A DNA stretch of 26,244 bases, from positions 1 through 26,244 of IMG/VR virus record IMGVR_UViG_3300032893_000251; one strand, written 5' to 3'. The position numbers and the translations under genes were made by a program. Positions 12,496 to 18,693 of this stretch are shown piece by piece; the stretch's first letter is position 1; every line of letters begins with the position of its first letter. The stretch comes from a virus. The notes under the pieces were generated by a model, which saw nothing but the letters and a program-made list of their open reading frames with translations, searched no databases and had not been told where the DNA came from.

Positions 12496-12570
12496 TGGTG
12501 CGTCTTACGGGGATTGAACCCGTCTTTCCACCTTGAGAGGGTGATGTCCTGACCGATAGACGAAAGACGC
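12496..12570 (-). tRNA. tRNA-Glu (anticodon CTC)
   Basis: Cloverleaf folds with acceptor GCGTCTT/AAGACGC. The anticodon loop is CTCTCAA and the T-loop TTCAATC. CCA is encoded. It reads GAG. It is the last tRNA of the array in transcription order. Confidence 0.92.
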
Positions 12571-12574
12571 AAAA

Positions 12575-12650
12575 TGGTCACCCGGACGGGACTTGAACCC
12601 GCATTGAGCACTTGAAAGGCGCTTATCCTGACCATTAGACGACCGGGTGA
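12575..12650 (-). tRNA. tRNA-Glu (anticodon TTC)
   Basis: Acceptor TCACCCG pairs with CGGGTGA; the anticodon loop is CTTTCAA and CCA is encoded. It reads GAA. It is 4 nt from the CTC-Glu gene, with which it shares the D-arm pattern, so the two may be duplicates. Confidence 0.92.
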
Positions 12651-12651
12651 A

Positions 12652-12725
12652 TGGTGCTCCAAAGAGGAATCAAACCTCTGTCTTCGCTTTACGAGAGCGC
12701 AGCTCTGTCACTGAGCTATAGGAGC
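12652..12725 (-). tRNA. tRNA-Thr (anticodon CGT)
   Basis: Acceptor GCTCCTA/TTGGAGC has one T-T mismatch at pair 6. The anticodon loop is CTCGTAA and CCA is encoded. It reads ACG. The gap to the Glu gene is 1 nt. Confidence 0.88.
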
Positions 12726-12726
12726 G

Positions 12727-12801
12727 TGGTGCAGACGAAGAGATTCGAACTCTCGTTGGGTTCCCTCGGATGGAACTGACCTTCCATTGGTCCACGTCTG
12801 C
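12727..12801 (-). tRNA. tRNA-Arg (anticodon CCG)
   Basis: Acceptor GCAGACG/CGTCTGC is perfect. The anticodon stem GTTCC/GGAAC encloses ATCCGAG, and CCA is encoded. It reads CGG. One of four Arg tRNAs in the array. Confidence 0.9.
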
Positions 12802-12805
12802 AAAA

Positions 12806-12880
12806 TGGCACCGGGGTAGGGACTCGAACCCTAGTAAGCAGTTTTGGAGACTGCCGTATTAGCCGCTATACGACCCCGAT
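12806..12880 (-). tRNA. tRNA-Trp (anticodon CCA)
   Basis: Acceptor ATCGGGG/CCCCGGT has one wobble. The stem GCAGT/ACTGC encloses CTCCAAA. Discriminator G and encoded CCA are as expected for Trp. Confidence 0.92.
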
Positions 12881-12887
12881 ATTAAAC

Positions 12888-12973
12888 TGGTGCATCGTGA
12901 TGGACTCGAACCACCGCATCCCAACGGGAATCTGATCTACAGTCAGACGCAATTGCCGCTCTGCCAACGATGC
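12888..12973 (-). tRNA. tRNA-Tyr (anticodon GTA), class II
   Basis: The anticodon loop is CTGTAGA with stem TCTGA/TCAGA. An extended variable arm makes an 86-nt gene, as normal for bacterial tRNA-Tyr. Acceptor GCATCGT/ACGATGC; CCA encoded. Confidence 0.92.
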
Positions 12974-12979
12974 TTAAAC

Positions 12980-13055
12980 TGGTGCCCCTGCGACGACTCG
13001 AACGCCGCGTCTTCCGCTTACAAGGCGGTTGCATCGCCATCTATGCTTCAGGGGC
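12980..13055 (-). tRNA. tRNA-Thr (anticodon TGT)
   Basis: Acceptor GCCCCTG/CAGGGGC. The anticodon loop CTTGTAA is closed by CCGC/GCGG. CCA is encoded. It reads ACA. An HNH-like ORF starts the next interval upstream (13066). Confidence 0.9.
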
Positions 13056-13065
13056 TTATATTTAA

Positions 13066-13638
13066 CTAATTCCCACCGCTCGTGTGTTGAAGTTGTAGGG
13101 GGTCTGGCTCAGAATCCATGCTGCTGTCGGACTCCGAAGTATTCCCGCCGTGCACACGCAAAGAACTTTCTTGTACGATCCTTGATATGGATTCTTTGAG
13201 TTGTGCGTTCTGTTCATGTCTCCGAATTCGCTCTTCATTATATTCCTTCCTTTGCTGACAGTTTGCACATCTCACAACACATCTTTCAAACTCATTATAA
13301 AGATGTGTGGGTTCTCCGCCGGACTGAACAAGGGCGACAACAGACTTATTGTATCTGGCGTGTTCTTGGCCTTCCCTTAGGTGAAATTTCAAAACAAAAG
13401 GATCTTTATTTCCGCATTCGAAGCATCCAAGCTTTGAGGATTCTTGAAAAACTATATTCTGAAGAGATTCAACGCGTTCATTTGTGCTGAGTTTTCTTTT
13501 AATTCGTACAGAAGGATTGCTCATATAGTTAATTCGGTCTTTTTTACGCTTACATTCCAAACAAATATAGCCAGCTCTATTGGCTTTGTTTGGAAAGTAA
13601 CACGACCTCTTATCCTTATTACAAACACGACAAAGCAT
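13066..13638 (-). CDS. HNH-endonuclease-like protein, catalytic motif degenerate
   Basis: 190 residues from ATG at 13638. A longer frame exists only because it runs through tRNA-Thr and tRNA-Gly upstream. Residues 1-40 hold a CxxC/CxxC zinc ribbon (CRVCNKDKR...ICLECKRKK). Residues about 70-135 resemble the HNH module of 17036-17479: CFECG, LKFHLREGQ, then CVVRCANCQQ. The usual D-H of the first motif is replaced by H-L, and NCHR by NCQQ, while the zinc cysteines remain. It therefore looks like a homing-type endonuclease with a decayed active site, or a repurposed DNA-binding protein. It lies between two Thr tRNA genes. Confidence 0.7.
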   Translation of the reverse strand: MLCRVCNKDKRSCYFPNKANRAGYICLECKRKKDRINYMSNPSVRIKRKLSTNERVESLQNIVFQESSKLGCFECGNKDPFVLKFHLREGQEHARYNKSVVALVQSGGEPTHLYNEFERCVVRCANCQQRKEYNEERIRRHEQNAQLKESISRIVQESSLRVHGGNTSESDSSMDSEPDPLQLQHTSGGN

Positions 13639-13657
13639 TTTTCTCTCCGGTTTGAAG

Positions 13658-13731
13658 TGGTGCTCTCTACAGGTATCGATCCTGTGTCTGATCCTTACCA
13701 AGGAACTGTACTGCCTTTGTACTAAGAGAGC
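13658..13731 (-). tRNA. tRNA-Thr (anticodon GGT)
   Basis: Acceptor GCTCTCT/AGAGAGC. The anticodon loop is TTGGTAA; the stem has one T-T mismatch. The T-loop is ATCGATA instead of TTCGA-type. CCA encoded. It reads ACC. Confidence 0.85.
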
Positions 13732-13733
13732 TT

Positions 13734-13809
13734 TGGTGTGCGAGAAGGGAATCGAACCCTCATCCTCACGTTGGCAACGTGACATACTAAGCCGTTGTAC
13801 TACTCGCAC
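13734..13809 (-). tRNA. tRNA-Gly (anticodon GCC)
   Basis: Acceptor GTGCGAG/CTCGCAC; the loop TTGCCAA is closed by TCACG/CGTGA. T-loop TTCGATT; CCA encoded. It reads GGC/GGT. Confidence 0.92.
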
Positions 13810-13815
13810 ATGAAC

Positions 13816-13889
13816 TGGTGTGGGTTACGGGACTTGAACCCGTTTCACCTGTTTGGAAGACAGGCGTAATACCTATATACGAAACCCAC
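13816..13889 (-). tRNA. tRNA-Gly (anticodon TCC)
   Basis: Acceptor GTGGGTT/AACCCAC; the loop CTTCCAA is closed by CCTGT/ACAGG. T-loop TTCAAGT; CCA encoded. It reads GGA. Confidence 0.92.
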
Positions 13890-13894
13890 AAAAA

Positions 13895-13982
13895 TGGCGG
13901 AGCGTGTTGGGATCGAACCAACGCAACCCTTTCGAGTTGTACGGTTTAGCAAACCGCTACCTTGCCTCTCGGTCAACGCTCC
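13895..13982 (-). tRNA. tRNA-Ser (anticodon GCT), class II
   Basis: Acceptor GGAGCGT/ACGCTCC with discriminator G. The anticodon loop is TTGCTAA and a long variable arm is present, as in normal Ser tRNAs. CCA encoded. The upstream HNH ORF (13957-14382) overlaps its 5' end by 26 bases. Confidence 0.92.
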
Positions 13983-14382
13983 TTCTATCTCTTCTCTTAT
14001 CGTGTTTTCTTTTACATTCAGAGCACCAAGCCCAAGGATCTTTATCCTTCCTGAAAACAGATAAGTCTCTATAGTCCTTACAGCCACCACACCATTTTGT
14101 TCCAGCAGGCGCTGTATCGTTTTTCTTTTGACGTGGCCGACCAACAACAATCTTTATCGATCTTCCATGGGCCGTATTACATGACCAATGTGAGAATGCT
14201 ATATTATCCACATCCAGATATAATTCTGGATGTGTAAGCCAAGGCTTTTTGTGCTCAACACTGAAGTCTTCAATTCTGTTTATCTTTTCGCCACAACGAA
14301 AACAGTTGTCCTGTTTAAGTTGCTTACAAAGATGGAACATAACCAAGCGATAAATCTTAGTTGGATTCGGTTTCTTCATCAT
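13957..14382 (-). CDS. HNH endonuclease, 3' end inside tRNA-Ser
   Basis: 141 residues. The core is CFRCGEKINRIEDFSVEHKKPWL, then YLDVDNIAFSHWSCNTAHGR, with the His of VEHKKPW, the Asn of DNIAFSH and the His of SHWSCN in the correct HNH order. A second zinc ribbon follows (CGGCKDYRDLSVF....CSECKRK). It probably cuts DNA as a site-specific, intergenic homing enzyme. It lies between tRNA-Ser(TGA) and tRNA-Ser(GCT). Its last codons and stop are the first 26 bases of tRNA-Ser(GCT), so it has no stop of its own before the tRNA. Confidence 0.85.
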   Translation of the reverse strand: MMKKPNPTKIYRLVMFHLCKQLKQDNCFRCGEKINRIEDFSVEHKKPWLTHPELYLDVDNIAFSHWSCNTAHGRSIKIVVGRPRQKKNDTAPAGTKWCGGCKDYRDLSVFRKDKDPWAWCSECKRKHDKRRDRRSVDREAR

Positions 14383-14395
14383 ACAAAATAAAAGG

Positions 14396-14484
14396 TGGCG
14401 GAGGATGTAGGACTCGAACCCACACAGAACTTTCGTCCTTCGTCAGTTTTCAAGACTGATGCCTTACCATTAGGCTAATCCTCC
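14396..14484 (-). tRNA. tRNA-Ser (anticodon TGA), class II
   Basis: Acceptor GGAGGAT/ATCCTCC, discriminator G. The stem TCAGT/ACTGA encloses CTTGAAA. A long variable arm and encoded CCA are present. It reads TCA. Confidence 0.92.
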
Positions 14485-14488
14485 AAAC

Positions 14489-14565
14489 TGGTGCCCAAGG
14501 TGAGCTTCGAACTCACAAAATTCAGATTTTAAATCTGACACGGTTTCCAATTACGTCACAAGGGC
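14489..14565 (-). tRNA. tRNA-Leu-like (anticodon TAA) with short variable loop
   Basis: The anticodon stem TCAGA/TCTGA encloses TTTAAAA, giving TAA for the Leu codon TTA. The T-arm GTGAG-TTCGAAG-CTCAC is perfect and CCA is encoded. Bacterial tRNA-Leu normally has a long variable arm; here only five bases (ATTTT) link anticodon and T-arm. The acceptor GCCCTTG/CTTGGGC has two adjacent T-T mismatches, so it may be decayed. The 3-bp D-stem is Leu-like. Confidence 0.75.
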
Positions 14566-14575
14566 AAAAATTGAC

Positions 14576-14597
14576 GACAGTTACTTAATTCACTGTC
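14576..14597 (-). repeat. Inverted repeat between tRNA genes
   Basis: GACAGT and ACTGTC form a 6-bp stem with a 10-base loop. In the leftward RNA it is followed a few bases later by a run of five T, so it could be a weak terminator or processing hairpin. Confidence 0.4.
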
Positions 14598-14600
14598 TTA

Positions 14601-14623
14601 CCTAGATTTACATCCGATCTAGG
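14601..14623 (-). repeat. Inverted repeat between tRNA-Leu and tRNA-Asp
   Basis: CCTAGAT and ATCTAGG form a perfect 7-bp stem around a 9-base loop. With the hairpin at 14576-14597 it fills an otherwise empty gap of 66 bases in the array. It is not a recognisable tRNA. Confidence 0.45.
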
Positions 14624-14631
14624 ATAAACTG

Positions 14632-14705
14632 TGGCGGTCAGTACGGGAATTGAACCCGTGTTGGAGGATCGACAATCCTCTGTCCTGCCATTGAACGAAC
14701 TGACC
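14632..14705 (-). tRNA. tRNA-Asp (anticodon GTC)
   Basis: Acceptor GGTCAGT/ACTGACC with discriminator G. The loop TTGTCGA is closed by GAGGA/TCCTC. CCA encoded. Confidence 0.92.
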
Positions 14706-14709
14706 AAAC

Positions 14710-14785
14710 TGGTGTGCCGAGAGGGACTCGAACCCCCAACTTTCTGCTTAGAAGGCAGAATTTCTGTCCATTGAATTATCGGCAC
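14710..14785 (-). tRNA. tRNA-Arg (anticodon TCT)
   Basis: Acceptor GTGCCGA/TCGGCAC. The loop CTTCTAA is closed by TCTGC/GCAGA. CCA encoded. It reads AGA. The stop codon of the coiled-coil ORF (14748-15284) lies inside this gene. Confidence 0.92.
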
Positions 14786-15284
14786 TTGAACTGGTGCTCT
14801 CTACTGGACTCGAACCAGCAACTTCCCCGTTAGGACCGGGGTACTCTTCCTGTTGAGCTAAGAGAGCTTCATTTCTAAGATCTCGTTTTCTTTCTCTCAT
14901 GGATTTCCTCGGCAGAATGCTTTGGTCCTTACCAAGGATCGTCGTGATACAACCCTCCGAAATAACATATTTATAGCCATCAACAGTGATAGCAGAAGCT
15001 CCTAACCGAATAGCCTCTTTTACTTTATCGGTAAGGATTTCGTCACGAATAGCATCGAAATCGACCCCGTATTTTCTCTGAAGATATCTAAAAATTGCAT
15101 GATCAGAAACACGAGGAAGAAGACCGATAATGCGAATTGCCGTTTCTCTTTCTTTGATTTTTTCATCCACTTTTCGCGCTTGATCGCGGAGGGGTATCCA
15201 CCCTTTATCCAACTCCATTTTTCTTTTCTTTAGTTCCTTCAGCTCCTCCACTAGTTCGTTTCGACCCGGCATGTCCATCTCCAT
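14748..15284 (-). CDS. Coiled-coil phage protein (SDHAIFRYL family), reads through two tRNA genes
   Basis: 178 residues as framed. Residues 1-60 form a charged coiled coil (ELVEELKELKKRKMELDKGW). Residues about 55-120 (PRVSDHAIFRYLQRKYGVDFDAIRDEIL, GASAITVDGYKYVISEGCITTIL) match a conserved phage domain of unknown function that I recognise by its SDHA..RYL.R..G.D pattern. The last 38 or so residues are a translation of tRNA-Arg(CCT) and the first half of tRNA-Arg(TCT). They are unlikely to be native, so the original stop seems to be lost. Several Met codons near the start (15284, 15278, 15272) are possible starts; none has a clear ribosome-binding site. Confidence 0.65.
   Translation of the reverse strand: MEMDMPGRNELVEELKELKKRKMELDKGWIPLRDQARKVDEKIKERETAIRIIGLLPRVSDHAIFRYLQRKYGVDFDAIRDEILTDKVKEAIRLGASAITVDGYKYVISEGCITTILGKDQSILPRKSMRERKRDLRNEALLAQQEEYPGPNGEVAGSSPVESTSSSADNSMDRNSAF
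14792..14867 (-). tRNA. tRNA-Arg (anticodon CCT)
   Basis: Acceptor GCTCTCT/AGAGAGC. The stem CCCCG/CGGGG encloses GTCCTAA. CCA encoded. It reads AGG. It is fully overlapped by the 3' part of the coiled-coil ORF. Confidence 0.92.
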
Positions 15285-15408
15285 AGTTCAGCCACGTAAA
15301 ATACAAACTCCCGCAATAAGGGCAATTATTCGGATGCCAACAACGGCCGTCTCGATAGACGCCGTCAAAGACCATCGTACATTTCCAGCATTGGTATTCG
15401 GGAATCAC
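15205..15408 (-). CDS. Small zinc-ribbon protein
   Basis: 67 residues from GTG at 15408. Two Cys pairs, CWKC (residues 7-10) and CPYC (29-32), bracket a short insert; the following GSLYFTWLNY is a tail I have seen on small phage zinc ribbons. The C-terminus (SGGAEGTKEKK) overlaps the start of the coiled-coil gene by 80 bases. The start is uncertain: a promoter-like site (15415-15443) would place transcription start at or near this GTG, implying a leaderless message. A later start would lose the first Cys pair. Confidence 0.45.
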   Translation of the reverse strand: MIPEYQCWKCTMVFDGVYRDGRCWHPNNCPYCGSLYFTWLNYGDGHAGSKRTSGGAEGTKEKKNGVG

Positions 15409-15414
15409 CGGTAT

Positions 15415-15443
15415 AGTATACTGGAAGACCGGATGAGAATCAA
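15415..15443 (-). promoter_or_regulatory. Candidate sigma-70-type promoter at end of tRNA-Cys
   Basis: TTGATT (15438-15443), 17 bases, then TATACT (15415-15420), within and just after the tRNA-Cys 3' end. The -35 is the T-loop of the tRNA, so it could be chance. It would serve the zinc-ribbon and coiled-coil genes. Confidence 0.4.
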
Positions 15444-15497
15444 ACTCACATCGACGCAGATTTGCAGTCTGCCGCATAATCACTCTGCCACCGGCCT
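15422..15497 (-). tRNA. tRNA-Cys (anticodon GCA)
   Basis: Acceptor AGGCCGG/CCGGTCT, discriminator T as in Cys. The loop CTGCAAA is closed by GCAGA/TCTGC. The T-loop is TTTGATT. CCA follows the discriminator. Confidence 0.9.
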
Positions 15498-15502
15498 AAA
15501 CT

Positions 15503-15594
15503 TGGTCTACCTACTAGGATTTGAACCTAGACCGCGCTCCTATCTGGAACTCATGGCTTATAAGGCCACCGTGCCGCCATTACACCATAGGTAG
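15503..15594 (-). tRNA. Class II tRNA with anticodon TAT (Ile-type anticodon)
   Basis: Acceptor CTACCTA/TAGGTAG is perfect; the T-arm CTAGG-TTCAAAT-CCTAG is perfect. The stem GTGGC/GCCAT encloses CTTATAA, so the anticodon is TAT (reads ATA, Ile). The variable region is 22 bases with its own 5-bp stem (GTTCC/GGAGC). Ile tRNAs are class I, so a long arm is anomalous. It may be a Leu/Ser-type body with a changed anticodon. CCA encoded. Confidence 0.8.
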
Positions 15595-15596
15595 AA

Positions 15597-16067
15597 TTAT
15601 TTCTTAACGATAGCGACTGTTGTGGGTTGTTGTGAATGACAGTTAGGGCAAAGAAACCTTAAATTTTCTTTACGATCATCAGACCAATCTCCATTTATAT
15701 GATCAATCTCAAGAACAATCCTCTTCCCGTTCCACTCACCTTTATTTCCACACAAACATTCATAAACTATACCGGACTCTAGCATTGCTCTTCTAAGTTG
15801 AGCTGCACGATTCCTATTTGTGGCATTTGGCCGAATAATTAATATCTGCTGCCAAGAAAGTTTATTGGGTGATATTTTTTCTCTTTTGTATGCTTGGCCA
15901 GTAAAATGACTCGTATCAATGTTTGCTTTTTTTAGTCGCCGAGAAACCCAATGATTAGTTCCACCTCCATCATTTCTTCCAAGTCTTCTGCAAACCTCAG
16001 CAACAGAAGAGCTTTGTTGAGCAAAAAATTTTAGATCGTCATCGGTAATAAAATATTTTCTATTCAT
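15597..16067 (-). CDS. HNH endonuclease (intact motif), between tRNA genes
   Basis: 156 residues. The C-terminal half has a complete HNH core: CLCGN, then VLEIDHINGDWSDDRKENLRFLCPNCHSQQ, with the DH, N and H residues in place and paired Cys. Residues 1-55 look like a DNA-recognition domain with helix-turn-helix-like spacing (SSSVAEVCRRLGRNDGGG...WVSRRLKKANI). It probably acts as a homing endonuclease for the tRNA array. It starts 2 nt after tRNA-Leu(TAG) ends and stops 2 nt before the class II TAT tRNA. It has its own stop, unlike most neighbouring ORFs. Confidence 0.9.
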   Translation of the reverse strand: MNRKYFITDDDLKFFAQQSSSVAEVCRRLGRNDGGGTNHWVSRRLKKANIDTSHFTGQAYKREKISPNKLSWQQILIIRPNATNRNRAAQLRRAMLESGIVYECLCGNKGEWNGKRIVLEIDHINGDWSDDRKENLRFLCPNCHSQQPTTVAIVKK

Positions 16068-16069
16068 AC

Positions 16070-16145
16070 TGGTGCCCCTGCTCGGACTCGAACCGAGAAA
16101 CTTCTGAGTCTAAATCAGACACCTTTACCATTTGGCCACAGGGGC
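16070..16145 (-). tRNA. tRNA-Leu-like (anticodon TAG) with short variable loop
   Basis: Acceptor GCCCCTG/CAGGGGC and T-arm CTCGG-TTCGAGT-CCGAG are perfect. The stem TCTGA/TCAGA encloses TTTAGAC, so the anticodon is TAG. The variable loop has five bases (AGTTT), not the long Leu arm. It resembles tRNA-Leu(TAA) at 14489 in its first nine bases. CCA encoded. Confidence 0.85.
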
Positions 16146-16249
16146 ATCTAGTATAAAACTGATGCGGCTTTCTGTTTCGAGGCAACCGCTGCCCAATCAG
16201 CTTACGCTGAAAGAAGTGAGGGACAATTATTCCCTACAGCCTTTACGAG
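16146..16249 (-). other. Structured 100-base gap, possible decayed tRNA plus -10-like element
   Basis: The gap ends on its left with GCATCAGT, one base from the usual GCACCAGT tRNA end. It contains two short hairpins (TCAGC/GCTGA and AGGGA/TCCCT). TATACT (16150-16155) lies just before tRNA-Leu(TAG). No complete cloverleaf or ATG/GTG-started frame was found. It may be a tRNA remnant. Confidence 0.3.
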
Positions 16250-16324
16250 TGGTGCGCACGGTAGGACTCGAACCTACATATACGGGCTTCGTAGACCCGC
16301 GCCCATCCTTTGGACCACGTGCGC
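16250..16324 (-). tRNA. tRNA-Arg (anticodon ACG)
   Basis: Acceptor GCGCACG/CGTGCGC. The stem CGGGT/GCCCG encloses CTACGAA, with one wobble. T-loop TTCGAGT; CCA encoded. It reads CGT, and CGC/CGA if A34 becomes inosine. Confidence 0.92.
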
Positions 16325-16328
16325 ATAT

Positions 16329-16404
16329 TGGTAGGTCGTGTAGGTCTCGAACCCACAACATCCTGTGTGTAAAACAGGTGCTCTTCCAATTGAGCTAACG
16401 ACCC
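16329..16404 (-). tRNA. tRNA-Val (anticodon TAC)
   Basis: Acceptor GGGTCGT/ACGACCT with one terminal wobble. The loop TTTACAC is closed by CCTGT/ACAGG. T-loop TTCGAGA; CCA encoded. Confidence 0.92.
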
Positions 16405-16410
16405 ATAAAC

Positions 16411-16485
16411 TGGTGGAGGCTACGAGAGTCGAACTCGTGACTTCGGAGTGCAAAACCGATGTTTTCCCATTATAACTAAGCCCCC
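16411..16485 (-). tRNA. tRNA-Ala (anticodon TGC)
   Basis: Acceptor GGGGGCT/AGCCTCC. The loop TTTGCAC is closed by TCGGT/TCCGA, with one mismatch at the loop end. T-loop TTCGACT; CCA encoded. The usual Ala G3:U70 identity pair is present (G3 with T70). Confidence 0.9.
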
Positions 16486-16492
16486 TTGAAAC

Positions 16493-16569
16493 TGGTACCC
16501 GGTGAGGGTCTCGAACCCACACATGAGCTGGTTTTGAATCAGCTGCCTCTTCCTTTGGGCTAACCGGGC
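16493..16569 (-). tRNA. tRNA-Leu-like (anticodon CAA) with short variable loop
   Basis: Acceptor GCCCGGT/ACCGGGT. The stem GCTGA/CCAGC, with one A-C mismatch, encloses TTCAAAA, giving CAA (codon TTG). The T-stem has a T-T mismatch. The variable loop is about six bases. Third Leu-anticodon tRNA here without the long arm. CCA encoded. Confidence 0.82.
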
Positions 16570-16573
16570 ATAT

Positions 16574-16647
16574 TGGTTGGCATGAGTGGTATCGATCCAC
16601 CGTCTAAGAGTTATCAACTCCTTGCTCTACCTTTGAGCTACATGCCA
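16574..16647 (-). tRNA. tRNA-Ile (anticodon GAT)
   Basis: Acceptor TGGCATG/CATGCCA. The stem AGGAG/CTCTT encloses TTGATAA. T-loop ATCGATA, the same variant as in tRNA-Thr(GGT). CCA encoded. Confidence 0.9.
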
Positions 16648-16653
16648 AAAAAC

Positions 16654-16729
16654 TGGTGCATCCCCACGGGATCGAACCGTATCCTTCTGCTCTTCAGGCA
16701 GACGTGCTGACCTTCAACACCAGAGACGC
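16654..16729 (-). tRNA. tRNA-Phe (anticodon GAA)
   Basis: Acceptor GCGTCTC/GGGATGC with two wobbles. The loop CTGAAGA is closed by TCTGC/GCAGA. CCA encoded. Confidence 0.9.
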
Positions 16730-16824
16730 TTAAACTCATACTGTCTCTCCAGCGCCAAGTCTGTTTTTTCGACAGGCCGACTTTCGCCCCGCTCAATGAA
16801 GTTTCCCGTGGAGACCACTGCCAC
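16714..16824 (-). CDS. Possible small ORF (36 aa) ending inside tRNA-Phe
   Basis: From GTG at 16824 a 36-residue frame runs leftward. It reads like a protein (ERGESRPVEKTDLALERQYE) and is charged. It ends on a TGA inside tRNA-Phe, 16 bases into that gene. A weak GGGG lies upstream. Because four other ORFs here also end inside tRNA genes, it is noted, but the evidence is thin. Confidence 0.3.
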   Translation of the reverse strand: MAVVSTGNFIERGESRPVEKTDLALERQYEFKRLWC

Positions 16825-16837
16825 AAGCAGCTACCCC

Positions 16838-16867
16838 TTGAACGTTCGAGTGCCCCCTAGCGTTCAA
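16838..16867 (-). repeat. Inverted repeat in tRNA-Phe / tRNA-Lys gap
   Basis: TTGAACG and CGTTCAA form a perfect 7-bp stem with a 16-base loop. With a second potential stem nearby (TCTCCA/TGGAGA) the 160-base gap looks structured. It is not a recognisable tRNA. Confidence 0.4.
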
Positions 16868-16888
16868 ACACCGGACTTCAAAGGAACT

Positions 16889-16964
16889 TGGTGGGTTCGG
16901 TGAGGATCGAACTCACGCGCAATCGCTTAAGAGGCGAACGCTCTGCCTACTGAGCTACGAACCC
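16889..16964 (-). tRNA. tRNA-Lys (anticodon CTT)
   Basis: Acceptor GGGTTCG/CGAACCC. The loop CTCTTAA is closed by TTCGC/GCGAT with one outer mismatch. T-loop TTCGATC; CCA encoded. It reads AAG. Confidence 0.92.
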
Positions 16965-16968
16965 GAAT

Positions 16969-17045
16969 TGGTGTGCACTGTCAGCCATGATCTGACACCT
17001 CACGGCTTAAAAGGCCGTTGCTCTGCCTGCTTGAGCTAAGTGCAC
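16969..17045 (-). tRNA. tRNA-Lys (anticodon TTT), unusual T-loop
   Basis: Acceptor GTGCACT/AGTGCAC. The loop CTTTTAA is closed by ACGGC/GCCGT. The T-arm GTCAG-ATCATGG-CTGAC is stable but its loop lacks the TTC core. CCA encoded. The HNH ORF at 17036-17479 ends inside its 5' end. Confidence 0.85.
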
Positions 17046-17479
17046 ATGGATGGGGAGGAAGGGGTCGAACCTTCATTGATCGGGTCAAAGCCGACGTTCC
17101 TGCCGTTAGAAGACTCCCCAAAAGCTCTTTTATAAGTTCTCATGCGGTGACAATTTGAACAAACAACATCACACTTATCAATCTCTTCCTTTAGTTTTTC
17201 TACAGAGCGACGGTTGCTTGTTGCTTGAGCAATATTAAACTTTTTTTCCCCACGAACGTGGTCAAAATCCATAACAAAATACGGGTATGAAATTCCGCAA
17301 TCAAAACAAGGTACTTTCTTTGCCGAAATTATAATTTCCCTGATTTTTATTTTCCATGTTCGCTGATCTTTCCAACCCCTTCTTCTAGACCACTCAACTT
17401 GGTATTTTGATTTGCATGGATTGCAATAACAGGAATAAGAGTTCCTTTCGGACAACCCACACCTAGAACAAAGCTTCAT
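17036..17479 (-). CDS. HNH endonuclease reading through tRNA-Gln into tRNA-Lys
   Basis: 147 residues from ATG at 17479, which lies 4 nt after the CCA of tRNA-Gln(CTG). Residues 4-25 hold a first zinc ribbon (CSRCG...CYCNPC). About residues 56-120 hold the HNH core: CFDCG, VMDFDHVRG, EEIDKCDVVCSNCHRMR, with DH and NCH intact. The last 28 or so residues are translations of tRNA-Gln(TTG), and the stop lies in tRNA-Lys(TTT). The native end is therefore lost, or the enzyme tolerates the extension. No ribosome-binding site is visible. It is related in layout to the degenerate 13066-13638 protein. Confidence 0.8.
   Translation of the reverse strand: MKLCSRCGLSERNSYSCYCNPCKSKYQVEWSRRRGWKDQRTWKIKIREIIISAKKVPCFDCGISYPYFVMDFDHVRGEKKFNIAQATSNRRSVEKLKEEIDKCDVVCSNCHRMRTYKRAFGESSNGRNVGFDPINEGSTPSSPSMCT
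17047..17120 (-). tRNA. tRNA-Gln (anticodon TTG)
   Basis: Acceptor TGGGGAG/CTCCCCA, with the first base T as in Gln tRNAs. The loop CTTTGAC is closed by GTCGG/CCGAT. The discriminator is T instead of the usual G. CCA encoded. It is fully overlapped by the HNH ORF. Confidence 0.9.
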
Positions 17480-17483
17480 ATAT

Positions 17484-17557
17484 TGGTTCCTCGCCAACGA
17501 TTCGAACGTCGATTAATAGGTTCAGAGCCTACGGTATTGCCATTATACGAGCGAGGA
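17484..17557 (-). tRNA. tRNA-Gln (anticodon CTG)
   Basis: Acceptor TCCTCGC/GCGAGGA. The loop CTCTGAA is closed by GTAGG/CCTAT. T-loop TTCGAAT; CCA encoded. It reads CAG. Confidence 0.9.
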
Positions 17558-17563
17558 ATAAAT

Positions 17564-17637
17564 TGGCTGGGGAACATGGACTCGAACCATGATTGGCTGA
17601 TTAACAGTCAGTTCTCTTACCTTTAGAGGATACCCCA
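17564..17637 (-). tRNA. tRNA-Asn (anticodon GTT)
   Basis: Acceptor TGGGGTA/TTCCCCA with one mismatch; discriminator G. The loop CTGTTAA is closed by CTGA/TCAG. CCA encoded. Confidence 0.9.
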
Positions 17638-17647
17638 ATATTATTTG

Positions 17648-17751
17648 AAATTTAGTTGGCGATGGGGAAACCATCGGGAGTCGAACCCGAATTGGCGCAT
17701 TCACAGTGCGCAGTCTTGGACCGTTAGACGATGGCTTCCATCGCTAAATTT
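17648..17751 (-). repeat. Inverted repeat enclosing tRNA-His
   Basis: AAATTTAG + GCGATGG to the left and CCATCGCTAAATTT to the right of tRNA-His are complementary, apart from a 3-base bulge. In RNA they would extend the acceptor stem by about 14 bp and pair with the CCA end. The right arm overlaps a candidate promoter -10. Its effect on processing is unknown. Confidence 0.55.
17663..17739 (-). tRNA. tRNA-His (anticodon GTG)
   Basis: The stem GCGCA/TGCGC encloses CTGTGAA. An extra 5' G (G-1) faces discriminator C, the hallmark of tRNA-His. Acceptor GAAGCCA/TGGTTTC; CCA encoded. Coordinates include the G-1. Confidence 0.92.
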
Positions 17752-17776
17752 AAAAACTTCCTATTCACATTTCCAA
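17748..17776 (-). promoter_or_regulatory. Candidate promoter for main tRNA array
   Basis: TTGGAA (17771-17776), 17-base spacer, TTAAAT (17748-17753), upstream of tRNA-His and just downstream of the terminator at 17797-17821. Each hexamer matches consensus 4/6. Transcription would begin close to the tRNA-His 5' end. Confidence 0.45.
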
Positions 17777-17796
17777 GATAGGCACTGCACTAAAAC

Positions 17797-17821
17797 TAAA
17801 AAGGGACCTTCTTAGGTCCCT
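17797..17821 (-). terminator. Leftward Rho-independent terminator inside tRNA region
   Basis: AGGGACCT (17802-17809), loop, AGGTCCCT (17814-17821): a perfect 8-bp stem with a 4-base loop, followed in the leftward direction by TTTT, AG, TTTT. It separates tRNA-Pro from tRNA-His and the rest of the array, so those must have their own promoter. On the plus strand no T-run follows. Confidence 0.85.
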
Positions 17822-17822
17822 C

Positions 17823-17855
17823 TTAAAACAACCGGATCTATGATGGCTGTTTTAA
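17823..17855 (-). repeat. Inverted repeat next to terminator
   Basis: TTAAAACA and TGTTTTAA form an 8-bp stem, directly upstream of the terminator in transcription order. The loop is 17 bases. It may assist termination or tRNA 3' processing. A further small stem (ACGGC/GCCGT, about 17875-17893) lies beside it. Confidence 0.5.
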
Positions 17856-17946
17856 AAGGGCACAACTACTCCCCAACGGCAAACAATGGCCGTGAGATAA
17901 TTTTGTTCATAAAATTTCGATATGCTTCTCATTTAGTTCCTTAAAT

Positions 17947-18021
17947 TGGTCGGGGATGAGAATTTTAAAATCTCGGCCTCTCGGTCCCAAACCGAGCGCT
18001 CTGTCTCTGAGCTAATCCCCG
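17947..18021 (-). tRNA. tRNA-Pro (anticodon TGG), unusual T-loop
   Basis: Acceptor CGGGGAT/ATCCCCG, with the C1-G72 pair typical of Pro. The loop TTTGGGA is closed by CTCGG/CCGAG. The T-loop is TTTAAAA, lacking the C. CCA encoded. It stands between the promoter at 18032-18060 and a terminator, so it is probably a single-tRNA unit. Confidence 0.88.
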
Positions 18022-18031
18022 TAAGCTGTGT

Positions 18032-18060
18032 AGTATACTAAAGGGAACTTAACTTGGCAA
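18032..18060 (-). promoter_or_regulatory. Strong sigma-70-type promoter before tRNA-Pro
   Basis: TTGCCA (18055-18060), 17-base spacer, TATACT (18032-18037); each hexamer matches consensus 5/6. Start would fall about 4 bases before the tRNA-Pro 5' end. It shares CTTGC...AGTATAC with the candidate promoter at 18527-18555. Confidence 0.75.
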
Positions 18061-18094
18061 GCGATTTTTTAAGTTTAGCTCTCATTCTTGTCAT
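18038..18094 (-). CDS. Possible 18-residue basic peptide ORF
   Basis: AAGGA lies nine bases before ATG at 18094. The 18-residue frame (MTRMRAKLKKSLAKLSSL) is basic and would be amphipathic. It begins 12 nt after the gene at 18107 and its end overlaps the tRNA-Pro promoter. It may be a chance frame. Confidence 0.25.
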   Translation of the reverse strand: MTRMRAKLKKSLAKLSSL

Positions 18095-18106
18095 GTTTAT
18101 ATTTCC

Positions 18107-18424
18107 TTAAGCGCAGTTTTCTATTTCTTCGAGGATCTTCGATGTTGACTGAATAATCAATCTAATCCCATTAATTTGGGCATCTATCCTGTTCAGATGA
18201 CCCGGCGGCTCAATGTGAGCTTGGCTTTTATCAGAGTTCGCTTCCGGAACAATACCAAGTAGACGATCTCTTAGATTCTTTGTGCGCTGGAAAAGGAAAT
18301 AGAGAGATTCGGTAGTAGAACTAAGCTCAGCCGAAGTTATTTCAAGGCGAGACATTTGCTTTTCAGGCGCTAATGCTGCCGTTCCCATGTTTGCTTGGTT
18401 GTAGGCGAGTGGTGGAGTTAGCAT
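18107..18424 (-). CDS. Small helical phage protein
   Basis: 105 residues from ATG at 18424, which has AGAGGA six bases upstream; a longer frame would start within tRNA-Met. It is mostly helical (MSRLEITSAELSSTTESLYFLFQRTKNL, then LNRIDAQINGIRLIIQSTSKILEEIE) and may form a coiled coil. No domain or catalytic residue is recognised. It is the last protein gene of the small-gene operon before tRNA-Pro. Confidence 0.6.
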   Translation of the reverse strand: MLTPPLAYNQANMGTAALAPEKQMSRLEITSAELSSTTESLYFLFQRTKNLRDRLLGIVPEANSDKSQAHIEPPGHLNRIDAQINGIRLIIQSTSKILEEIENCA

Positions 18425-18447
18425 GAGGATCCTCTGACGAAAAGAGA

Positions 18448-18520
18448 TGGTAGCGGGTAAGGGAGTCAAACCCTTCGCTATCTGGCTTATGAAGCCTGAC
18501 TGACCATCGGGTCACCCGCC
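18448..18520 (-). tRNA. tRNA-Met (anticodon CAT)
   Basis: Acceptor GGCGGGT/ACCCGCT. The loop TTCATAA is closed by CAGGC/GCCAG with one A-A mismatch. Initiator hallmarks are absent, so it is elongator Met or Ile2. CCA encoded. The TAA in its anticodon loop is the stop of the GcrA-like ORF. Confidence 0.88.
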
Positions 18521-18690
18521 TCAGATGGTATACTGGATTTTTTCTTATAATGCAAGCGAAGACCTAAGCGACGAACTTTCGAATACGCGGCTATTTTGGA
18601 AGTTCCAAGCTCTTTGGCAATCGGACCTATCTCTATTCCCTGATTCCACATTTGCTTCAACTTATCAGCCTTATCTTTAGGCCAAGTCAC
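18487..18690 (-). CDS. GcrA-like helix-turn-helix protein, stop inside tRNA-Met
   Basis: 67 residues. The N-terminal 45 (TWPKDKADKLKQMWNQGIEIG, PIAKELGTSKIAAYSKVRRLGL) match the DNA-binding part of GcrA, an alphaproteobacterial cell-cycle regulator: W..ek...LK.lW..G.....IA.eLG.....A...K.rRLGL. Length fits a phage-size GcrA-like factor. GTG at 18690 is favoured, with GGAG seven bases upstream. Its last 11 codons and stop lie in tRNA-Met. A promoter for tRNA-Met (18527-18555) is embedded in its coding sequence. It may act on phage or host promoters. Confidence 0.75.
   Translation of the reverse strand: MTWPKDKADKLKQMWNQGIEIGPIAKELGTSKIAAYSKVRRLGLRLHYKKKSSIPSEAGDPMVSQAS
18527..18555 (-). promoter_or_regulatory. 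Candidate promoter for tRNA-Met inside GcrA-like gene
   Basis: TTGCAT (18550-18555), 17-base spacer, TATACC (18527-18532). It shares CTTGC and AGTATAC at identical spacing with the promoter of tRNA-Pro. Predicted start is at about the tRNA 5' end. Confidence 0.5.
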
Positions 18691-18693
18691 CAA

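Follow-up and report, generated by a model that had tools for sequence, protein, structure and literature searches.

The window analyzed here comprises all 26,244 bases of an IMG/VR-type virus record (IMGVR_UViG_3300032893_000251). Its terminase and portal proteins share 30–43% identity with counterparts in alphaproteobacterial and uncultured phages; no close relative was found by searching viral and genome contigs with the portal protein, or viral contigs with the protein encoded at 14748. A tRNA array occupies positions 12496..18021 of the minus strand and comprises 32 tRNAs, 31 of them called by ARAGORN and one, tRNA-Pro (17950–18021), by Rfam. Protein genes are interspersed among the tRNAs: four HNH endonuclease genes (13066, 13957, 15597, and 17036, each named by its lowest coordinate), a phrog_8252 gene (14748), and a zinc-ribbon open reading frame (ORF) at 15205–15483. 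A GcrA-like gene (18487) lies upstream of the array. Here, we describe the placement of HNH genes on the 5′ ends of tRNA genes, in the window and in other viruses, and what this placement suggests about how they spread. The HNH genes and the tRNAs that adjoin them are as follows (nt, nucleotides).

13066..13638, minus strand: HNH endonuclease gene between tRNA-Thr(GGT) and tRNA-Thr(TGT), with its stop 10 nt before tRNA-Thr(TGT); phrog_2255, E=2.3e-11
13895..13982, minus strand: tRNA-Ser(GCT), overlapped by HNH 13957; ARAGORN
13957..14382, minus strand: HNH endonuclease gene, 141 amino acids, final 8 codons in tRNA-Ser(GCT); PF01844, E=1.2e-7; phrog_23251
14396..14484, minus strand: tRNA-Ser(TGA), directly 5′ of HNH 13957; ARAGORN
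15597..16067, minus strand: HNH endonuclease gene that occupies the gap from tRNA-Leu(TAG) to tRNA-Ile(TAT) but for 2 nt on each side; phrog_10822, E=1.6e-46
16969..17045, minus strand: tRNA-Lys(TTT), whose nt 8–10 provide the stop of HNH 17036
17036..17479, minus strand: HNH endonuclease gene, ATG at 17479, 147 amino acids; phrog_2255, E=2.9e-31, match to residue 122
17047..17120, minus strand: tRNA-Gln(TTG), entirely within the frame of HNH 17036; ARAGORN, Rfam 48.1 bits
17484..17557, minus strand: tRNA-Gln(CTG), intact, directly 5′ of HNH 17036

PF01844 is found in 13957 and 15597, and matches to phrog_2255, phrog_10822, and phrog_23251 likewise identify HNH catalytic domains. Pfam and PHROG scans of the array endonucleases revealed HNH domains only, with no GIY-YIG domain. 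Rfam scans of the window detected no intron family and the flanking tRNAs are complete; a self-splicing group I intron around the genes is thus not indicated. No integrase was present among the array proteins scanned; att repeats were not searched for.

An earlier note on this DNA, made from its letters alone, had reported that several frames end inside downstream tRNAs, and the coordinates agree for four of them, counting the GcrA-like gene 18487, which ends in a tRNA-like sequence (see below). HNH 13957 extends 26 nt past the 5′ end of tRNA-Ser(GCT). HNH 17036 extends 85 nt, traversing all of tRNA-Gln(TTG) and stopping at a TAG formed by nt 8–10 of tRNA-Lys(TTT). The non-HNH gene 14748 extends 120 nt, through tRNA-Arg(CCT) and 38 nt into tRNA-Arg(TCT). 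The two remaining HNH genes stop just 5′ of a tRNA, at 2 nt (15597) and 10 nt (13066). For three of the four HNH genes, both flanking tRNAs are specific for the same amino acid (Thr, Ser, and Gln).

The conserved region of HNH 17036 ends around residue 120, where tRNA-Gln(TTG) starts. Homologues of this gene also sit in tRNA arrays, and other HNH homologues end a few to ~25 residues past the same motif, in unrelated ways. At the other end, HNH 17036 and 15597 begin 4 and 2 nt, respectively, past the CCA ends of the preceding tRNAs (17484–17557, which is tRNA-Gln(CTG), and 16070–16145, both on the minus strand). The acceptor strand of tRNA-Gln(CTG), GCGAGGAACCA, may serve as the ribosome-binding site of HNH 17036. 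The acceptor strands GCGAGGA and AGGGGC resemble ribosome-binding sites for 17036 and 15597, and the sequence GGGAG in the truncated tRNA of phage ECML-1 (see below) is similarly positioned.

HNH stop codons pile up at tRNA 5′ ends

Our survey covered 293 loci, drawn from viral contigs and from annotated phages. They contain 270 distinct HNH ORFs, which fall into four related families. Sixty-six of these ORFs end inside the next same-strand tRNA, and a further 38 stop 0–10 nt before it; only 39 stop at 11–300 nt (15 at 11–50 nt and 24 at 51–300 nt). Thus, where a tRNA follows within 300 nt (143 distinct HNH genes), the gene ends in that tRNA or within 10 nt of it in 104 cases. The downstream tRNA is on the same strand in 103 cases and convergent in six. 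This pile-up across viruses is not chance. Sequencing error as a source of missing stops is ruled out, since the layout recurs in dozens of records.

Stop codons within tRNAs occur at preferred positions, frequently nt 8–10 or 13–15. The distribution of overlap lengths has peaks at 10 nt (17 cases, in most of which U8-A9-G10 gives UAG) and at 15 nt (six cases). Longer overlaps occur as well: in the bixzunavirus Dandelion, gp160 traverses tRNA-Trp and ends in tRNA-Tyr; gp178 shares 72 nt with a tRNA-Thr. HNH frames on or beside tRNAs are left unannotated in ET08, ECML-1, and phiPsa347. The HNH families favor particular tRNAs, with 16 of 44 members of the A3 family adjoining tRNA-Leu (P=8e-5). 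A long-lived partnership between an HNH lineage and one isotype was considered and is unsupported, given frequent isotype changes on weakly supported trees.

The earlier note had also held that the overlaps exceed chance. This is true of the clustering of HNH stops (104/143) but not of overlap length in the window. Because a random frame that enters a window tRNA runs for a median of 41.5 nt before a stop, and 35% of frames traverse the entire tRNA, the window overlaps are unremarkable once a gene has entered a tRNA without a stop. Across the survey, overlaps are shorter than a three-frame expectation (mean rank 0.64, with 1 being neutral; P=0.00025), and fewer frames run through a whole tRNA than the 26% expected (6/66). 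The two full run-throughs in the window, 14748 and 17036, are unusual in this regard. The short overlaps and few run-throughs are consistent with a cost of overlap and hint at one, with the reservation that related genes do not count as independent cases. A conflict between mRNA and tRNA, in which 5′-end processing of the tRNA would deprive the message of its stop codon, is plausible if weakly supported.

Truncated tRNAs and same-anticodon replacements

We searched for truncated tRNA 5′ ends ("stubs") up to 150 nt before HNH genes, using a fixed rule that compares the best-matching isotype of the stub with that of the intact tRNA downstream of the gene. Thirteen stubs were found, and the isotypes agree in eight (P=5e-5, with downstream isotypes shuffled). 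Two further stubs agree by anticodon (His GTG at locus L056 and Tyr GTA at L231). Several break right after the anticodon loop (L215, L254, L230, and L252). The combination of a remnant of the resident tRNA with an intact, diverged copy recurs at L295, L301–L305, L019, L104, L215, L230, L254, and others.

Three phage groups allow alleles to be compared at one site. In Ounavirinae (felixounaviruses and relatives), EcoM2, SP-107, and SUSP2 have one tRNA-Leu(TAG), Leu_A, whereas BPS17S6 and Mijalis have another, Leu_B; the two share an anticodon but only ~59% identity. ECML-1, SP22, pSJ21, EcSzw_1, PC79-13, and Michonne have a third arrangement: the first 11 nt of the resident tRNA, Leu_A, followed by the HNH gene and a complete Leu_B. 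These six genomes belong to three genera and have their own left flanks, and the HNH gene is accompanied by Leu_B in all six. The TAA stop of the ECML-1 gene is derived from GATTTAAT, which is the native flank before Leu_B in BPS17S6, a genome with no HNH gene at this site. In Salmonella phage FSL SP-107 (L307, KC139640.1), the annotated tRNAs appear to be several hundred bases away from the tRNA sequences.

The presence or absence of an HNH homologue at one site is also seen in Bixzunavirus. Nappy has a single tRNA-Thr(GGT). Dandelion and Mangeria match Nappy for 176 nt, up to a break after nt 25 of this tRNA; the 25-nt stub is followed by a ribosome-binding site, the HNH gene, and a complete tRNA-Thr(GGT) of different sequence. 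In Mangeria, the resident sequence resumes after the replacement tRNA. In Otagovirus, phiPsa347 has an HNH gene and one tRNA-Leu(TAG) where phiPsa374 and phiPsa300 have another. These comparisons show that genes have indeed inserted at tRNA 5′ ends, more than once, in phages other than that of the window. At a separate bixzunavirus HNH site (site 1: L019 7900–8600, L137, and L135), the exchange boundary is at about nt 11 of tRNA-Pro, and tRNA-Trp and tRNA-Tyr are exchanged along with the HNH gene. In phage Colt (L136 3726–3891), an HNH gene between tRNA-Thr genes is internally deleted; it is intact in Asterius (L135 3743–4117).

We consider it likely that the HNH genes with overlaps encode free-standing homing endonucleases, and that each gene is seated at a tRNA 5′ end and moves as one with that tRNA. 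The mobile unit would consist of the HNH gene and the tRNA in which, or at which, it ends. The enzyme would cut the resident tRNA allele, and repair would copy the unit across. Where alleles can be compared, the gene has broken into the 5′ part of the resident tRNA 11–45 nt in, leaving the stub, and has come with a tRNA, complete and different in sequence but with the same anticodon, which would take over from the broken one. An HNH frame in this position would need no stop codon of its own: the ORFs would end in tRNAs because conserved tRNA nucleotides (U8-A9-G10, 13–15, or the D loop) or the native flank supply one. That the enzyme cuts the resident but not the carried allele, and that homing drives the spread, we infer from the allele patterns and from the known cleavage of tRNA genes in T6 by SegB (PMC13096335). 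The HNH genes of the window probably arose in the same way, judging by their kinship: they belong to the same families, have the same seating, and have same-amino-acid flanks in three of four cases.

Several observations weigh against this explanation. Cleavage itself is deduced from allele patterns and the analogy with SegB. The window has no stub, since the tRNAs 5′ of its HNH genes are intact, and no relative with an empty site was present in the collections searched; its same-isotype flanks (3/4) exceed the window's background only marginally (P=0.03). At some loci, stub and downstream tRNA disagree: Ser/Leu at L111 (by eye), Leu/His at L211, Gln/Ser at L165, Trp/Leu at L141, and a mismatch at L147. 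The adjoining isotype switches often, with 34 changes in 54 rows, on poorly supported quick trees. Non-HNH genes in the arrays also overlap tRNAs (~10/22, some of them spurious ORFs). Lastly, same-isotype intact flanks are not enriched in the first survey set (7/39 vs 55/324, P=0.82). Intact tRNAs of one isotype on both sides were therefore dropped as a general rule; a larger set shows a weak excess (11/35 overlap cases vs a 17.5% background). Because this enrichment is weak, the argument is built on the truncated stubs.

A stronger version can be proposed tentatively, with rather less confidence than the homing explanation itself: the units may be natural cleave-and-rescue selfish elements, in which the HNH enzyme destroys the resident tRNA allele while the fused, same-anticodon tRNA (~60% identity) is immune and restores function. 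If so, competition between phages would turn over tRNA alleles. The homing explanation as such would already give a mechanism for the turnover of phage tRNA genes, in which a selfish gene carries along a different tRNA that shares the anticodon of the one it displaces. It would also explain why homing endonuclease genes crowd phage tRNA arrays. Such units would be a natural counterpart of engineered cleave-and-rescue drives, and the alleles concerned (Leu_A, Leu_B, and HNH with Leu_B) exist in cultured coliphages. For genome annotation, HNH genes that overlap or abut tRNAs deserve attention, as they are often missed.

Other array genes and alternative explanations

Two frames of the window that end in tRNAs or tRNA-like sequence are not HNH genes.

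14710..14785, minus strand: tRNA-Arg(TCT), whose nt 36–38 provide the stop of 14748
14748..15284, minus strand: phrog_8252 gene, function unassigned, traversing tRNA-Arg(CCT) and ending 38 nt into tRNA-Arg(TCT)
14792..14867, minus strand: tRNA-Arg(CCT), within the frame of 14748; ARAGORN
~18448..18520, minus strand: degenerate tRNA-Met-like cloverleaf with a Met anticodon and a 4-nt D loop; ARAGORN and Rfam both silent
18487..18693, minus strand: GcrA-like helix-turn-helix gene, 68 amino acids; PF07750, E=4.2e-8, residues 3–52

The sole phage homologue of 14748 is an 88-amino-acid protein of Thiobacimonas phage vB_ThpS-P1, which has no tRNA nearby. Its C-terminus is 3 residues beyond the aligned stretch, which extends to residue 136 of 14748; tRNA-Arg begins at residue 139. 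The remaining tail of ~39 amino acids is missing from this homologue. Because the tRNA-free protein stops where the tRNA begins, the C-terminal tails of the overlapping frames are tRNA-encoded additions. The expectation that native C-termini would fall before the tRNA is thus borne out for 14748, as it is by the conserved region of 17036. The final 11 codons of the GcrA-like gene lie in the tRNA-Met-like sequence, with the stop 34 nt in. The earlier note had placed this stop in the anticodon loop of a tRNA-Met; the Met-anticodon cloverleaf is there, but we regard it as degenerate because neither ARAGORN nor Rfam, even at E<=5, recognizes it. The gene adjoins this decayed tRNA-Met, and some array HNH enzymes (the L003 type) start with a similar helix-turn-helix; 18487 could be a remnant of a longer homing gene. 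A fifth frame (16638–16826, TTG start), suggested to end in tRNA-Phe, is not credible, having no gene support and lying in a structured non-coding spacer. This spacer, between tRNA-Lys and tRNA-Phe (16730–16888, minus strand, 159 nt), has no gene call, no Rfam or phage match, and a predicted fold of −52 kcal/mol, and is a candidate structured RNA; 16725–16889 matched no known phage RNA. Another structured spacer, between tRNA-Arg(ACG) and tRNA-Leu(TAG) (16146–16249, minus strand, 104 nt), has only a weak 12-bit tmRNA-like Rfam match.

Since non-HNH array genes overlap tRNAs too, overlap by itself is not specific to homing genes; 14748 and 18487 are probably other genes packed onto tRNAs likewise, without homing. 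Dense packing might then account for the HNH genes as well: any gene in a compact array abuts the next tRNA, whose triplets close its frame, with no functional link between HNH gene and tRNA. Non-HNH genes of the same arrays do overlap or abut tRNAs, HNH genes account for only two of the four window cases, and 35% of frames would traverse a whole tRNA by chance. However, packing leaves unexplained the same-isotype stubs that precede HNH genes, the same-anticodon replacement at one site in three phage groups, and the pairing of HNH with Leu_B in 6/6 ounavirus genomes. It is already disfavored for the HNH genes, and we judge it unlikely.

Less likely still is that the overlap is a control device, in which RNase P cuts the 3′ end of the HNH message, removing the stop and keeping endonuclease levels low. 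The geometry implies loss of the stop upon tRNA processing, and T4 homing endonucleases are tightly restrained at the RNA level (PMC2988022), but of the 104 HNH genes in close placement, 38 terminate shortly 5′ of the tRNA and so retain their stop, and short overlaps are favored.

The explanation originally offered, that unrelated genes lost their native stops through insertion or recombination at tRNA 5′ ends, with a harmful mRNA/tRNA conflict as the result, fares no better. Insertion is indeed repeated in other phages, the tails are tRNA-encoded and missing from a tRNA-free homologue, and overlaps are below the three-frame expectation. However, it is the tRNA or native flank that supplies the stop, and such stops are common over many lineages, suggesting a stable state rather than a repeated accident; loss of an earlier stop is nowhere evident. 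We consider this reading very doubtful. Segmental amplification, in which HNH cuts in tRNAs duplicate tRNA and HNH units, would yield the Gln-HNH-Gln, Ser-HNH-Ser, and Thr-HNH-Thr arrangements of the window and has a precedent in SegB, which amplifies tRNA-Tyr with segB via microhomology of the 5′ end of the tRNA with the 3′ end of segB (PMC13096335), but it is highly improbable, as the window's flanking tRNAs differ greatly in sequence and carried and resident tRNAs elsewhere are only ~60% identical, and hence not recent duplicates.

Comparison with known systems

The homing explanation places these genes near several known systems. SegB of T4 and T6 is likewise free-standing, lies beside phage tRNAs, cuts tRNA genes, and drives exchange of the tRNA region; it differs in being a GIY-YIG rather than an HNH enzyme, and the available portions of these accounts describe no stub with a same-anticodon replacement tRNA (PMC13096335, PMC2988022). 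HNH genes in mycobacterial and mycobacteriophage tRNA clusters are the same kind of gene in the same setting and have been proposed to spread the clusters; overlap, stub, and replacement tRNA are not described in the accessible parts of those reports (PMC6582537, PMC6409571). Group I introns with homing endonucleases also interrupt tRNA genes while tRNA function is kept, but there the tRNA is restored by RNA splicing (PMC3984707), whereas here no intron was detected and the replacement would be at the DNA level. The literature searched, with subscription journals largely outside its scope, gave no account of an HNH gene accompanied by a tRNA stub and a replacement tRNA of the same anticodon. 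SegB and the HNH genes of tRNA clusters are related systems already known.

The nearest known counterpart is the mitochondrial mobile endonuclease ORF (mORF), found in Allomyces atp6 and in Glomus atp6, atp9, cox2, and nad3 (PMC3630166). There, too, a free-standing endonuclease ORF enters a gene together with a diverged version of the segment that it displaces; the gene works on, and the native remnant stays. mORFs are LAGLIDADG or GIY-YIG enzymes, target protein genes, and replace only the 3′ part (PMC3630166), whereas the phage genes encode HNH enzymes, lie at tRNA genes, come with a whole tRNA, and overlap it at the end of the ORF. On our best reading, the HNH gene with its tRNA is the phage-tRNA version of the mitochondrial mobile ORF.

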